This document shows positions 10,525-17,144 of a stretch of 57,356 bases of DNA, in pieces. The stretch covers positions 1 to 57,356 of the forward strand of contig CAMDAD010000019.1 of the NCBI GenBank assembly GCA_945888515.1. The letters are read 5' to 3'. Numbering within the stretch: the stretch's first letter is position 1; each line of letters starts with the position of its first letter. The notes under the pieces are model-generated. The model did not search any database. It was not told where the DNA came from and was given only the letters and a program-made list of their open reading frames with translations. Origin of the DNA: Akkermansia muciniphila. GTDB lineage: Bacteria > Verrucomicrobiota > Verrucomicrobiia > Verrucomicrobiales > Akkermansiaceae. Position numbers and translations under genes: made by a program.

Positions 10525-12324
10525 ATGAAAACTGAATCTCTTTTCCCCGCATTCCTGACGGCGTTTTTCGCAGGACTTTTTTTTACGACGGCGCCCGCGA
10601 AGGCAGGTTTCATTCCGCCCAAGGACAACGCGCCTTTCCGCCGCGACCAGCTCCCCATTGATGTCGATACGATGAAACAATTGTCCAGCCACTTGGTGAC
10701 ACTCTGCAGTATTCTGGATTCGCAAGACAACAGTCAACAACGCACTGCCGCGCAGTTCCTCGCGCTGGCTCTGGCACTGGATCCCGTCAACCGCAGCGCT
10801 CAAGACTTGTTAGATCAATTCAAACAGGAGACACCACCGCTCACGCGTAACCAAAATGAACTTGTCGTCGCCAAGTCCCGCGCATGGCGCACACAATCCT
10901 GGCTCGCCACTGCCGAGTCTGGCGCGGACGGCAGAAGCCTCGCACTCTGCCTCGGCGATGTTCTTTCTAAAGTAGATCCCGAGCACCCCTCATCGGCCAA
11001 CTACAAAACCGAACAAGGACAATGGAAAGAATGGATCGCAGACGCCGATCGTTTTCTAAAGAAAGAAGAACCAGGCATCTTGGACGGAGAAGAGACTGCT
11101 GAAGAGGAAATGACCGAGCAGGATAAGGAGCTTAATGAAGTCGATGATCAGCAAATCGCCTTTGCACTGAATAGCGCCACGATATCCTCACCATTGATGA
11201 TATTCAACGATATCACCAAAACCTATGATTTGAAGCTGTTACCCGTCACTCTCAGCACCGCGATCGATGAAGAACACAAAGAATTTCGATATCATCTCAA
11301 AGACGTAGACCAAGAAAAAATTCGACCAGCGCTGCTTGCCATCAATAAAAGCACCGTTCCATGGCTGAAGGAAAAATTCCAAGGACTCCCGCATGGTGGT
11401 GTCGTGAACCTGTCACTGCCCCCGAGAGAATACTACGCCACCAACCGCAACGCAGAAAATATCTCGGCCGCCGCTGCCGTGCTGGCCGCAGCGTCACTCA
11501 GCGGGCAAGAGCCTACTGGCGTGGTCATAGGCATTGTGCAACCCGATGGCAAGTTGGTCCTCCCCAGCAACGGTTGGCAACTCATCCGCTCCCTGTCCGC
11601 AGCGCCCGCCTCTCGTGTCGTTTTACCCAAATCCTGCGCTGATTTGCTGCTTGGTCTCCTCACGCTTGATGAACTGGAATTTTTCATGAAACACGATGTA
11701 TTACTCGCCGATAACATCGATGAATTAGTCAACTTGAGCAAAAAAAATCCCGATGCCAACCTCGCTGCCGCCTTGAGTCATTTCGCCGGAATACGCGAAA
11801 AAGCCACCTCCAGCATCGGCCCCTTCGTCACCAACTCGTTTGTTCGCGGCCGACTGGAAACCATCGCTGCCGCCATGCCAAACTACGCCTCCGCACAATA
11901 CTTACTGATCCAAGCAAAAGGGAAGCGCCCGACACAATTGTCGGAAAAAGTCACCGCACACGAACTCCGCATGGCCCTTGCTCCGATCAGATCAGTCGTT
12001 GACATCTACTTTGATAACGATGAGAGAACTCAGCCTACTCATACTCAGATGCAATCCGCTCACGAATCGTGTCGCGCAGCCCTAGATCCATTGGACCGAC
12101 AGATTGCCAACACAGAACGGGCGATTTATGGGGAAGCCATCGATCTAGCAAACACCGCGCGCACACTGGCTCGTGCGATAAAAAAAGTAAAAGACAAGGG
12201 CTTCGAGAACTACATCAAGGGGTTTCACGACAAATCGCTGACTGAATCAGCTTCCATGCTTACGAAAGCGCTGCCAGAGATTGAACGCAAGATTAGTCAC
12301 ATTCTCGAAGAGCCAGAATTGTAA
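10525..12324 (+). CDS. Secreted protein with a degenerate Lon/S16-like domain
   Basis: 599 residues with a signal peptide (to about residue 27, cleavage near AKA). A good ribosome-binding site AAGGA lies 7 bases before the ATG. Residues about 300-405 resemble the proteolytic domain of Lon. They contain a serine in the position of Lon's nucleophile (NISAAAAVL, Ser314) and the block GIVQPDGKLVLPSNGWQL, which parallels Lon's TGEI...G.V.PIGGLKEK. The residue aligned with the catalytic Lys is Gln352. It continues with VVLPKSCADL and a DNIDELV-like end, as in Lon. Either the dyad is incomplete or the fold has been reused. N- and C-terminal parts are unrecognised helical regions. Confidence 0.6.
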   Translation: MKTESLFPAFLTAFFAGLFFTTAPAKAGFIPPKDNAPFRRDQLPIDVDTMKQLSSHLVTLCSILDSQDNSQQRTAAQFLALALALDPVNRSAQDLLDQFKQETPPLTRNQNELVVAKSRAWRTQSWLATAESGADGRSLALCLGDVLSKVDPEHPSSANYKTEQGQWKEWIADADRFLKKEEPGILDGEETAEEEMTEQDKELNEVDDQQIAFALNSATISSPLMIFNDITKTYDLKLLPVTLSTAIDEEHKEFRYHLKDVDQEKIRPALLAINKSTVPWLKEKFQGLPHGGVVNLSLPPREYYATNRNAENISAAAAVLAAASLSGQEPTGVVIGIVQPDGKLVLPSNGWQLIRSLSAAPASRVVLPKSCADLLLGLLTLDELEFFMKHDVLLADNIDELVNLSKKNPDANLAAALSHFAGIREKATSSIGPFVTNSFVRGRLETIAAAMPNYASAQYLLIQAKGKRPTQLSEKVTAHELRMALAPIRSVVDIYFDNDERTQPTHTQMQSAHESCRAALDPLDRQIANTERAIYGEAIDLANTARTLARAIKKVKDKGFENYIKGFHDKSLTESASMLTKALPEIERKISHILEEPEL

Positions 12325-12434: not shown

Positions 12435-13643
12435 ATGTCCGCCATCTGCCCGACACTCCCAGACTACTTGCATGAGGAAATTCTGCTTCATCCTGAAAAC
12501 CGCAACTTTCCTACCTTCGATCTACGCAGGTTGTTAGATACTGTGTTCACACCGACTACCGGTTGCAAGATCTGCATTCTCGTAGACTTCGCCGACCCAC
12601 AACCCATGATGCAAGAGTTCCGCTTCCTCAAAGAGGAAGGGTTTCCCATACAAAAACGCGCCTACCAACATTTCTTTCAAGGCATGCAAAATGGCGTTAT
12701 GGCTAACCTCGGCATGCACGGTGGAGAAATGTTCGCTTATCGCATGACTTATGGTTCGAATCTCGACCTCGCCGATGAAGTGTGGGACGCCCGTGGCAAG
12801 CAACTCTCTTTCGATCACGACATTTATCCGAATTACGATCTGATTCTTTGTATCTCCACCTACTCCGCCACGGCTCCACTCACGGCAAAGGCAAAACAAT
12901 TCGGTTTCCGCGGTGCCACCTTGCACGGTGTGAATGACATGATTCTATCCTCAGGATTGGCTGTCGATTACCATGAGGTTTCGCGCGATGCCGAAAAAAT
13001 CCGCCTCGCCATGACTTGTGCTGATTCCATCGAAATTGACTTCGCCCTCGAAGACGGCCGCGTCCTCACTGCATGGCTCGGTCTCGGTGGTCAAGAATCT
13101 CAAAAATCCCATGGTCTTTGCAACGGGCTCACGCCAGACATCGCCAACCTTCCCGCAGGGGAGGTCTACTTCGTCCCCTGCGATGCGCGCGGCCAATTTC
13201 CCATGAAATACGAAGATGGCACTCTCGGCGTGCTCGATGTGGAAAATCGCTGTATCGTTCGCTCCACACTCATCGCCGGGAACCAAGCAACCATCGATGC
13301 TCATAACGCTCGGCTGATCGATGACCCCATGACCGGCACGCTCGGCGAACTCGGCTTCGGCACGCAGGTGCTCCCTGTTTCCGGTGCCGACATTCAAGAC
13401 GAAAAAGTGCTGGGCACCTGCCACCTTGCCACTGGTCGCGATGATCATCTCGGCGGTGACATCATGCCCTCGATGTTTAAAAAACACGAGAATTCCACTC
13501 ACGACGATATCCTTTTTGCGCCGCACAAAACACCGAACTTCAATATCAGTGAAGTGCGCATGAAGCGCGGCGATCAAGAGGAAATCATCATTGAAAATTT
13601 CCGCCCCAGCCGCTACATTATGGATGCGCTGACAGCATTCTAA
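12435..13643 (+). CDS. M29-family (aminopeptidase T-like) metalloprotein
   Basis: 402 residues. The C-terminal half carries the M29 pattern: Glu243 (AGEVYFVP), Glu305 (GELGFG), His330 in DEKVLGTCHLATG, and His356/Asp358 in THDDIL. These positions correspond to metal ligands in aminopeptidases AmpS/T. The N-terminal half is longer and more divergent than in typical leucyl aminopeptidases, so the substrate may not be an ordinary peptide. It is followed after 5 bases by the OvoA-type methyltransferase, suggesting a shared transcript and perhaps histidine-derived thiol metabolism (inference). Confidence 0.75.
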   Translation: MSAICPTLPDYLHEEILLHPENRNFPTFDLRRLLDTVFTPTTGCKICILVDFADPQPMMQEFRFLKEEGFPIQKRAYQHFFQGMQNGVMANLGMHGGEMFAYRMTYGSNLDLADEVWDARGKQLSFDHDIYPNYDLILCISTYSATAPLTAKAKQFGFRGATLHGVNDMILSSGLAVDYHEVSRDAEKIRLAMTCADSIEIDFALEDGRVLTAWLGLGGQESQKSHGLCNGLTPDIANLPAGEVYFVPCDARGQFPMKYEDGTLGVLDVENRCIVRSTLIAGNQATIDAHNARLIDDPMTGTLGELGFGTQVLPVSGADIQDEKVLGTCHLATGRDDHLGGDIMPSMFKKHENSTHDDILFAPHKTPNFNISEVRMKRGDQEEIIIENFRPSRYIMDALTAF

Positions 13644-13648
13644 CACAA

Positions 13649-14386
13649 GTGGCCGGTTCGAACATCTACGAGTCTCCGCGACTTCTCGACGAATACCTCT
13701 TATTTCACTACGGCAGTGAAACTGATGTATTTGCTGATGGTGAAATCCCCTACCCCGCCGCCATGCGCGAGGCCATGGGTTTCACGCGACGGACAGTAGG
13801 ATACTTCGGCGAATTCACGGTTGCGCGCGGGCTTGACTTGGGCTGCGCCGTGGGCGCATCGACTTTTGCCATGGCAAAACACTGCGAACATGTTGTAGGC
13901 ATCGATTTCTCCCACGCCTTCATTGATGCGGCGGCGGCATTGCACCGAGGCGAAACGATCGCCTACCGTCGCCATGACGAGGGCGGGATGTATCAGGAAT
14001 TGCGCGCGCGTGCCGCAGGCAGAATCGACCGCTGCTCCTTCGAGCAAGGGGATGCCATGGAGCTGCGAACGGACTTGGGGGCATTCGACCGCGTGCATGC
14101 AGCGAATGTCATTTGTCGCTTGCCACGACCAACAGCCTTGCTGGATCGCCTCCCGGAGTTGGTTCACCCCGGCGGGGAACTCATTCTCGCCACGCCTTGC
14201 ACTTGGTTGGAGGAATACACCCCACCCAGCGCTTGGCCCATGGGCGATACTTTTTCCTGGTTGCAACAGCAATTGAGTCCCCACTTCGAGCTCATGCATC
14301 GCTGCCACGAACCCTTCCTCATCCGCGAAACCGCCCGCAAATTCCAGTGGTCACAATCGCTTGTGACTTGCTGGCAAAGGAAATAA
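13649..14386 (+). CDS. Stand-alone OvoA C-terminal-type methyltransferase (putative 4-mercaptohistidine N1-methyltransferase)
   Basis: 245 residues from a GTG start 5 bases after the M29 gene. It covers the full C-terminal domain of OvoA: the opening NIYESPRLLDEYLLFHYG, SAM-binding LDLGCAVGAS, GIDFSHAFI, the middle AANVICRLPRP, the segment PGGELILATPCTWLEEYTPP, and the end RKFQWSQSLVTCW. In ovothiol biosynthesis this domain methylates 4-mercaptohistidine at the imidazole nitrogen. In OvoA it is fused behind a sulfoxide synthase; here it is separate, and no sulfoxide synthase or OvoB lies in the window. Confidence 0.85.
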   Translation: MAGSNIYESPRLLDEYLLFHYGSETDVFADGEIPYPAAMREAMGFTRRTVGYFGEFTVARGLDLGCAVGASTFAMAKHCEHVVGIDFSHAFIDAAAALHRGETIAYRRHDEGGMYQELRARAAGRIDRCSFEQGDAMELRTDLGAFDRVHAANVICRLPRPTALLDRLPELVHPGGELILATPCTWLEEYTPPSAWPMGDTFSWLQQQLSPHFELMHRCHEPFLIRETARKFQWSQSLVTCWQRK

Positions 14387-16094: not shown

Positions 16095-17144
16095 ATGATG
16101 AATCAAATCTTTTTTCTTCTGCTGAGCATGGTTCTGCCTCTCTGCGCTCAGAACCGTGGCTACCAGGATGCAAAACCACAGCATTACAAATTTCAGGAGC
16201 GTGCCAGCATCATCGATCCGCGTGCGCGCGCTCATCCTGAGATTGATTTTTTTCTCGAAAAAAGTGGCAAACCAGTAGACTTACAGAACGCAGCAGTGGA
16301 TACCCGCATTGCTCCACAGGGGAAACTTGTCATCTGGCTCATGGCGCATAACGGCGCGCTGTTTGACAAGATCACTTCCTACGGTCACCACGTGATTCAG
16401 GTGCACTATGCCAATGGGTGGTTCAACAAACTCTACGGCAATAAACCACCCGCCGATGATTTGTTTCTTTCAAAAGTGCGCTTGGAAGCAGCTACTGGAA
16501 AAGACTTTAGCGATGCTGTGGTCATTCCGGAACCGGACGGCATGATGGAGAGGGCGCTTCAATTCGTCACATGGCTAGCGAAAAAAAATCCCCAAGCCCA
16601 CTGGGAAGGATTTCTCACACCAGACCGAAAGGGCCTCCGATGGGACCGCGTCATCATCTCTGGAGCCTCACACGGTTCCACCACCGCAGCACGTTTCGCG
16701 AAATATCAAAAAGTCGATCGGGTCGTCATGTTCTCCGGACCACGCGATCAATACGAGGTTTGGCAAAAACTTCCCTCCGCCACGCCAGAAAACCGCTACT
16801 TCGGGTTCACGCACACACTCGATGATGGCTGGCAAAACGATCATTACTGTCGTTCATGGGAATTGTTAGGGATGAACGCCTTCGGGGCCGTAACGAATGT
16901 GGATCAGACTAAAGCGCCCTACGGCCATTCACGCCGGCTAGTTACTTCTGCTGATGTGAAAAATAACGCAGGCCGAGCTCACAGCGCTTCCGTACCTGGT
17001 GGGGCAGCCGTCAAGAATGCGAAGGGGCATTTTATCCACGAAGACGTCTGGCGCTATTTGTTCACGCATCCTGTTGACCAAGTGGGTACGCCCATAGAGC
17101 ACGATGCGAGTTGCATCATTGACCAACGGGAAGCGCAGCAATGA
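16095..17144 (+). CDS. Secreted alpha/beta-hydrolase-fold protein (possibly BPSS1187 family)
   Basis: 349 residues with a signal peptide ending near LPLCAQ (about residue 19). The nucleophile elbow is ISGASHGSTTAARFAKY with Ser192. The surrounding text VDRVVMFSGPRDQYEVWQKLP and the later FTHTLDDGWQNDHYCRSWELLG resemble secreted alpha/beta hydrolases that I associate with the BPSS1187 group; that name is from memory. A late His near GHFIHEDVW could complete the triad. Substrate unknown; likely periplasmic or exported esterase-like. Confidence 0.7.
   Translation: MMNQIFFLLLSMVLPLCAQNRGYQDAKPQHYKFQERASIIDPRARAHPEIDFFLEKSGKPVDLQNAAVDTRIAPQGKLVIWLMAHNGALFDKITSYGHHVIQVHYANGWFNKLYGNKPPADDLFLSKVRLEAATGKDFSDAVVIPEPDGMMERALQFVTWLAKKNPQAHWEGFLTPDRKGLRWDRVIISGASHGSTTAARFAKYQKVDRVVMFSGPRDQYEVWQKLPSATPENRYFGFTHTLDDGWQNDHYCRSWELLGMNAFGAVTNVDQTKAPYGHSRRLVTSADVKNNAGRAHSASVPGGAAVKNAKGHFIHEDVWRYLFTHPVDQVGTPIEHDASCIIDQREAQQ

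Follow-up and report, generated by a model that had tools for sequence, protein, structure and literature searches.

Co-occurrence of a stand-alone OvoM-type methyltransferase with a NicX/M29-fold protein in Verrucomicrobiota suggests a possible OvoA-independent route to thiohistidines

Two published accounts of ovothiol biosynthesis name a single enzyme that forms the C-S bond, the sulfoxide synthase OvoA (PMC12631010, PMC10903977), and the second of these describes OvoA as a non-heme iron, O2-using enzyme (PMC10903977). OvoA (TIGR04344 plus TIGR04345; PDB entry 8khq) carries a C-terminal methyltransferase domain. OvoM (9bxl, 9bxm, 9bxn) and OvsM (9bxh, 9bxj, 9bxk), names that we take from the PDB entry titles, are stand-alone 5-thio-/5-selenohistidine N-methyltransferases. 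The EanB/MES ergothioneine synthases form a thiohistidine C-S bond without a sulfoxide synthase (PMC10903977); they provide a precedent, but they are different enzymes, for ergothioneine, and we set them beside our system by description, not sequence. Among open-licence papers, we found none tying an M29/NicX-type protein to thiohistidine and none on ovothiol in Verrucomicrobia or on ovothiol independent of OvoA. Here, we describe a gene pair in a 57,356-nucleotide stretch of DNA from Akkermansia muciniphila (contig CAMDAD010000019.1 of assembly GCA_945888515.1; "the window"). The pair consists of a stand-alone methyltransferase (MT) of the OvoM/OvsM type and a metalloenzyme-like protein of the NicX/M29 fold superfamily, which we call the partner.

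The partner gene, assigned from its open reading frame and a fold model, occupies positions 12435..13643 of the forward strand (ATG start, 402 amino acids). It is followed on the same strand by the gene for the MT, an S-adenosylmethionine-dependent N-methyltransferase assigned from TIGR04345, PDB sequence matches and fold (13649..14386; GTG start, 245 amino acids). An earlier note, made from the letters of the window, had placed a gene pair here with 5 bases between its members; the open reading frames agree exactly, and the 5-base gap (13644..13648) suggests co-transcription. The host genome (3.36 Mb in 54 contigs, 97.5% complete) has a single copy of the MT gene, as judged by a search of the genome. 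A stand-alone MT is not in itself new, because the solved OvoM and OvsM are listed in the PDB as separate N-methyltransferases. What is new is the co-occurrence of the two genes across the phylum, with the MT found without the partner only beside an OvoA whose own MT domain has decayed.

The same note had described the MT as matching the C-terminal domain of OvoA from end to end while being separate from a sulfoxide synthase. Consistent with this, residues 7-244 match TIGR04345 (ovoA_Cterm) over model positions 1-242 of 242 (E 4.9e-47), and the MT is not fused to a sulfoxide synthase. The score of 160.5 bits lies below the curated cut-off of 170, which places the MT outside the equivalog. The nearest solved sequences are OvsM (2.7e-37), OvoM (4.1e-35) and OvoA (7.5e-30), with 34-39% identity to OvoM and OvsM. 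A profile of the MT family (alignment A2; 36 rows, comprising 35 stand-alone MTs of the order, at 40-66% identity, and the OvoA domain of genome G002) gave whole-length matches to OvsM (4.8e-71), OvoM (5.7e-66) and the OvoA MT domain (1.3e-65). An AlphaFold2 model of the MT (pLDDT 90.7, pTM 0.90) superimposes on OvsM, OvoM and the OvoA MT domain with Z scores of 28.4-30.4 and a root mean square deviation (rmsd) of 1.6-1.9; for OvoM and OvsM the Z range is 28.9-30.4. The next fold is the carnosine N-methyltransferase CARNMT1, at Z 19.0. By full-length sequence and by fold, the MT therefore belongs with OvoM, OvsM and the OvoA C-terminal domain, far above the other methyltransferases listed. We conclude that the MT is probably an OvoM-type imidazole N-methyltransferase, an assignment that is the well-supported part of our best explanation.

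We surveyed 387 genomes of the phylum, counting the partner at E <1e-100 and MT and OvoA at E 1e-30; at most 4 (partner, OvoA) or 7 (MT) candidates were scored per genome, so that a weak match could be missed. The partner was present in 57 genomes belonging to 16 families. A further 24 genomes had only weaker partner matches (8e-30 or worse), which we treated as M29-type paralogues. All 57 partner genomes also had a stand-alone MT (Fisher p 6e-61, kinship ignored), and all 57 were without OvoA above the cut-off; OvoA reached the cut-off in 18 genomes. MT matches were found in 75 genomes: the 57 with the partner, 7 with OvoA and a separate MT, and 11 with an OvoA-borne MT domain only. Hence, for stand-alone MTs at E 1e-30 or better (64 genomes), 57 had the partner and no OvoA, 7 had OvoA and no partner, and 0 had neither or both. 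The 7 partner-less MTs all fell within the 18 OvoA genomes (p 4e-10, kinship ignored) and came from two families, f9 and f16 (here and below, G denotes a genome, L a locus, f a family and g a genus in our surveys). In 39 of the 57 partner genomes, the MT gene started no more than 2 kb downstream of the partner start on the same strand, and in 5 it lay within 7 kb on the same strand. Complete co-occurrence together with close spacing in 39 genomes indicates that the pairing is not due to chance. The conservation of the pair that the earlier note had proposed to look for is thus borne out, with the two genes not always adjacent.

An order-level survey, in which 141 genomes were searched for the MT, the partner and the OvoA N-terminal region, gave a similar picture. 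MT matched in 115 genomes, the partner in 116 and both in 114. Two genomes had the partner without the MT (G036, 86% complete; G062, 68% complete), one had neither (G048, 75% complete), and in G081, G083 and G130 the partner matches were partial. Genus g2 lacked both genes in all 23 genomes surveyed; with g2 excluded, the partner was present in 116 of 118 genomes and a stand-alone MT in 114 of 118. A single genome of the 141, G002, had an OvoA N-terminal region above the cut-off. Its MT domain is borne on OvoA, and it has neither partner nor stand-alone MT, although it belongs to genus g10, of which 20 further genomes were surveyed and all match both genes (G081 and G083 with partner fragments only). 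An EgtB-like sulfoxide synthase was rejected as a general source of substrate: sub-cut-off TIGR04344 matches of 102-139 bits occurred in 10 of the 141 order genomes, and in the phylum one of the 57 partner genomes (G259) had a TIGR04344 match at E 1e-30, too few in either case.

The OvoA proteins that coexist with a separate MT have an unusual MT domain. We aligned the OvoA MT domains of 19 genomes, the 18 of the phylum survey and G002. Across 13 references and two stand-alone MTs, 40 columns do not vary; in the 8 OvoA genomes of f9 and f16 (OvoA genes L276, L277, L308, L311, L312 and L314-L316), the domain has lost 14-17 of these, versus 3 of 40 in G002. With 14 functional reference rows, including G002, the number of invariant columns is 52, and the f9/f16 domains have lost 16-20 of them; leave-one-out losses of the reference rows themselves were 0-7 of 52 (7 for G002). 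Raw loss counts are not decisive, since stand-alone MTs depart from the references too; the point is the pattern of residues. A136, L158, P183, E227 and K231 are lost in all 8 f9/f16 OvoA rows, and each is retained in 57-59 of 59 MTs from partner genomes and in 7 of 7 stand-alone MTs from f9 and f16. Every stand-alone MT of the two sets (59 of 59 and 7 of 7) has N153 and R157, which survive in 3 and 4, respectively, of the 8 f9/f16 OvoA domains. The key motif residues N153, R157, P183, K231 and Q233, which are common to the MT and OvoM/OvsM, are all retained in 59 of 59 partner-genome MTs. The N-terminal synthase domains of the f9/f16 OvoA proteins are above the cut-off in 8 of 8 (655-692 bits, with 668-692 for the other ten phylum OvoAs). 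Decay of the OvoA domain and retention of the same residues in the separate MT, found in 7 of the 8 genomes, suggest that the separate MT probably completes OvoA methylation in f9 and f16, organisms that may use a split OvoA/OvoM arrangement. For the eighth genome, G253 (f16), no separate MT was found; its OvoA gene (L314) is split over two open frames, possibly reflecting loss of the pathway.

A tree of 75 rows, which also served for the column counts, contained 59 partner-genome MTs, the 7 stand-alone MTs of f9 and f16, 6 OvoA domains and 3 PDB sequences. Locus L281 (MT gene called at <215 amino acids) and loci L097, L127, L252 and L287 (MT-like match, no MT gene called) were left out, and the MT of L272, whose start was called too far downstream, lost N-terminal columns as a result. 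In this tree, the MTs of f16 cluster with those of f7 partner genomes (support 96/90); the MT now found beside OvoA in f16 is thus of partner descent. Those of f9 form a distinct clade (100/99) whose position was not resolved. Partner-genome MTs are mostly separate from OvoM and OvsM (split support 84/82), the exception being L282 (f32), which falls on the OvoM/OvsM side with modest support; given this placement, the partner-associated MTs are not established as a separate functional class.

Unlike OvoA, the MT lacks a sulfoxide-synthase domain, and none was found elsewhere in the host genome. A search for DinB_2 gave 0 matches at E 0.001, so that no known sulfoxide synthase is present there, and the best match to the OvoA N-terminal model TIGR04344 scored 49.4 bits against a cut-off of 400; FGE-sulfatase had nine matches. 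The earlier note had suggested a split or an alternative mercaptohistidine pathway, to be checked by searching for a stand-alone OvoA N-terminal protein and for OvoB. We rejected the split OvoA, as no separate N-terminal half was found, and it is the alternative pathway that co-occurrence favors. An OvoB-like pyridoxal phosphate-dependent lyase is present: a PatB-type C-S lyase scored 382.9 bits against a cut-off of 340. Its gene is on a different contig from the pair, and 5 of 14 control genomes also had a lyase match above the cut-off. An ovoselenol-type route, in which the pair would make the selenium analogue, is highly improbable. OvsM is the best PDB match of the MT by sequence, tied with OvoM by Z, but the best selD (selenophosphate synthetase) match in the host scored 44.2 bits against a cut-off of 125, and there is no OvoA-type synthase, given the lack of DinB_2. 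For this host the selenium route is largely refuted, unless selD falls within the 2.5% by which the genome is incomplete.

The partner is strongly conserved, with the other 34 rows of its alignment (A1) sharing 62-86% identity with the window protein (P0001). No Pfam or NCBIfam family, PF02073 included, matched it at E 0.1, and neither sequence nor profile searches gave a convincing PDB relative. Its AlphaFold2 model (pLDDT 79, falling to <50 at residues 313-327 and 349-360; pTM 0.79) has the fold of NicX, a 2,5-dihydroxypyridine dioxygenase (7cup, 7cn3): NicX was the sole Foldseek match below 0.001 (E 8.6e-9) and aligned with Z 19.8 over 303-305 residues (rmsd 4.2 for 303 aligned), at 11-12% identity. 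The M29 aminopeptidases AmpT (2ayi), PepS (4icr) and AmpS (1zjc) share the fold at Z 13.1-14.3, as do the crocagin biosynthesis proteins CgnE (Z 9.9) and CgnB (Z 8.8). Unlike the M29 and CgnB proteins, the partner itself has no Pfam match and co-occurs with the MT. Phylum profile searches found remote homologues, L303 (8.2e-30), L304 (4.9e-21) and L306 (2.1e-20), which match Peptidase_M29 (PF02073) at 2.5e-7, 4.2e-6 and 5.3e-5, one of them above the cut-off. The description of the partner as a divergent M29-type metalloprotein, made in the earlier note, therefore stands at the level of the superfamily, through the distant homologues and the NicX/M29 fold, and not as a family match of the partner itself. 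Applied to the superfamily, the name "M29-like metalloenzyme" is correct, and it does not imply peptidase activity.

Six partner residues, E243, E305, E323, H330, H356 and D358 (window span 13161..13508, forward strand), are invariant in all 22 rows of alignment A4, including the three distant homologues, and are candidate metal ligands. When the partner is aligned with AmpS, a match that is weak (E 0.064), E243, E305, E323 and H330 fall opposite similar residues. By spacing and motif, in a mapping of our own over a region (313-360) much of which is poorly modeled, the six positions may correspond to the dinuclear site of CgnB, given as Glu161, Glu252, Glu274, His280, His291 and Asp293 in its description (PMC10070186), whose ligands resemble the E/E/E-H/HxD pattern of the partner. 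H330, H356 and D358 could likewise match His265, His318 and Asp320 of the NicX Fe(II) site, which are listed together with Ser302 (PMC7910607). Unlike NicX, the partner keeps E305 and E323, which would correspond to ligands of the CgnB/M29 type and are absent from the NicX Fe ligand set. NicX and OvoA are both described as non-heme iron, O2-using enzymes (PMC7910607 for NicX), which makes an oxidative role for the partner plausible; the M29/CgnB-type ligands leave a hydrolase possible. Cys229 of the partner (window 13119-13121, motif HGLC) is also invariant in 22 of 22 A4 rows, including the three distant homologues.

In all genomes that have it (64 of 64), the stand-alone MT is accompanied by the partner or by an OvoA without a functional MT domain, and never by neither, which suggests that its substrate is the same or similar in both settings; the partner would then be a functional stand-in for the sulfoxide synthase. 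Tentatively, we favor the view that the two genes provide an OvoA-independent route to ovothiol A or another, closely similar N-methylated thiohistidine, and we assign the stand-in role to the partner with slightly more reserve. As a metalloenzyme with the NicX/M29 fold, the partner would replace the OvoA sulfoxide synthase in supplying a thiol-bearing imidazole, perhaps assisted by a PatB-type C-S lyase such as that of the host genome, and the MT would act as an OvoM-like thiohistidine N-methyltransferase. We are more doubtful of the stronger proposal that the partner is a previously unrecognized C-S bond-forming metalloenzyme, unrelated to the DinB/FGE synthases, and that across most of a widespread order it and the MT together produce ovothiol or a new relative of it. 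If the partner does replace the OvoA synthase, sulfur would be attached to the histidine ring in a second way, of independent origin, by a protein whose fold is otherwise familiar from peptidases and a dioxygenase that cleaves a pyridine; many bacteria called negative by OvoA-based genome searches would then be expected to contain ovothiol-type thiols. Should the product be a different imidazole, a pathway would still be gained for a conserved module with an uncharacterized partner.

Several observations weigh against an OvoA-independent thiohistidine route. The support for the pair consists of genes, folds and co-occurrence; from co-occurrence and fold we infer the chemistry of the partner, and with it the substrate, metal, reaction and product of the route. 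Partner-genome MTs depart from the references at 5-19 (median 10) of the 52 columns, a range that overlaps the 16-20 of the degenerate OvoA domains; the f9/f16 stand-alone MTs depart at 6-12. Unlike in OvoA, OvoM and OvsM, H234 is altered in all 66 stand-alone MTs (59 of 59 from partner genomes and 7 of 7 from f9/f16), and D156 is altered in 53 of the 59 and retained in 6. The substrate of the stand-alone MTs may therefore differ. The six M29/CgnB-type ligand positions of the partner, moreover, fit a hydrolase as well as an oxygenase. The MT may methylate another imidazole (histidine, a peptide or a different thio-imidazole) that the partner makes or trims as an M29-type hydrolase, so that the product is not ovothiol. 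The D156 and H234 differences, the candidate dinuclear site, the carnosine N-methyltransferases among the next folds and the score below the TIGR04345 cut-off all favor this explanation. However, f9/f16 MTs of the same clade accompany OvoA proteins that have a degenerate MT domain, pointing to thiohistidine, and those stand-alone MTs also carry the H234 change; overall, we judge another imidazole rather unlikely.

Linkage between the two genes is also loose. The MT is unlinked to the partner in 13 of the 57 phylum genomes, and in a scan of named loci (the best 80 of at least 545 confirmed partner loci, all Verrucomicrobia by title), a same-strand MT lay in the available stretch of 19; 61 were without one, some through the end of a contig. 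Both genes occur at the loci of the cultured isolates Haloferula rosea (L182), Roseibacillus ishigakijimensis (L208) and Luteolibacter marinus (L200). The evidence for a functional tie thus comes more from joint presence in genomes than from a strict operon layout. The same figures would fit two unrelated housekeeping genes, both merely conserved. This explanation is improbable in view of the 57/57 co-occurrence over 16 families, the 39 close pairs with the same order and strand, and the joint absence of both genes from all 23 g2 genomes and from G002.

The exclusion between partner and OvoA is weak on its own (p 0.053, kinship ignored), and the partner/OvoA swaps represent few events: f9, f16 and G002. 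In the order containing f16 and f9, the partner was present in 64 of 177 genomes, none of them from f9 or f16. Two f9 genomes, G149 and G157, are absent from the partner, MT and OvoA match tables; the absence of the partner from f9 is hence not tied to OvoA, and f9 is no clean swap. Finally, the two f9/f16 OvoA MT domains included in the tree form one clade (100/100), so the decay of the domain may have been a single event.

Neighboring genes bear on a further explanation. At L272-L275 (f9), genes resembling those of an amino-acid ATP-binding cassette (ABC) transporter, named by eye as a binding protein, a permease and an ATPase, lie downstream of the stand-alone MT in the same orientation. 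Among the recurrent neighbors of the partner loci examined, no transporter stood out, no systematic search having been made. If the pair were catabolic or served salvage, the partner would open or release an N-heterocycle by NicX-like ring cleavage or as a peptidase, the MT would protect or mark the product, and thiohistidines would be scavenged. This proposal fits the closest fold match of the partner, to the ring-cleaving dioxygenase NicX, and the position of the f9 MTs beside transporter-like genes. We nonetheless consider it unlikely: near-universal presence in the order outside g2 fits core biosynthesis better, no transporter was prominent in the partner loci examined, and the transporter-bearing f9 genomes lack the partner.

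No third gene was generally conserved with the pair; we considered two candidates, each restricted. Of the 44 order loci with the partner, 13 have a divergently transcribed short-chain dehydrogenase/reductase (SDR) of one subfamily next to it, in families f2 and f4 only (L097, L098, L101, L102, L106-L108, L122, L131, L133 and L138-L140). The SDR remains beside the partner in L122 and L131, whose MT is elsewhere, and it occurs near the partner in one f7 locus outside the order, L302. In L090, L091 and L094, a same-strand gene for a small cupin-like protein (motif CCCGTTRRAF) separates the partner from the MT, and in L113 such a gene immediately precedes the MT. Among the 39 close pairs, the intervening small gene was a cupin in three (G123, G064 and G088). 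The cupin is a candidate third component in one family.

Plasmid records gave matches to both proteins. The MT matched 20 records, 14 of them annotated ovoA; for the partner there were three partial matches at 30% identity, two annotated aminopeptidase. Metagenome-assembled genomes with the partner include some titled Akkermansia muciniphila (among them L150, L151 and L153), labels that may be loose. In the window, the 599-amino-acid frame directly upstream of the partner (10525-12324) matched no Pfam or NCBIfam family above the cut-off, and positions 16095-17144 encode a BPSS1187-family protein (NF047580, 248.9 bits).

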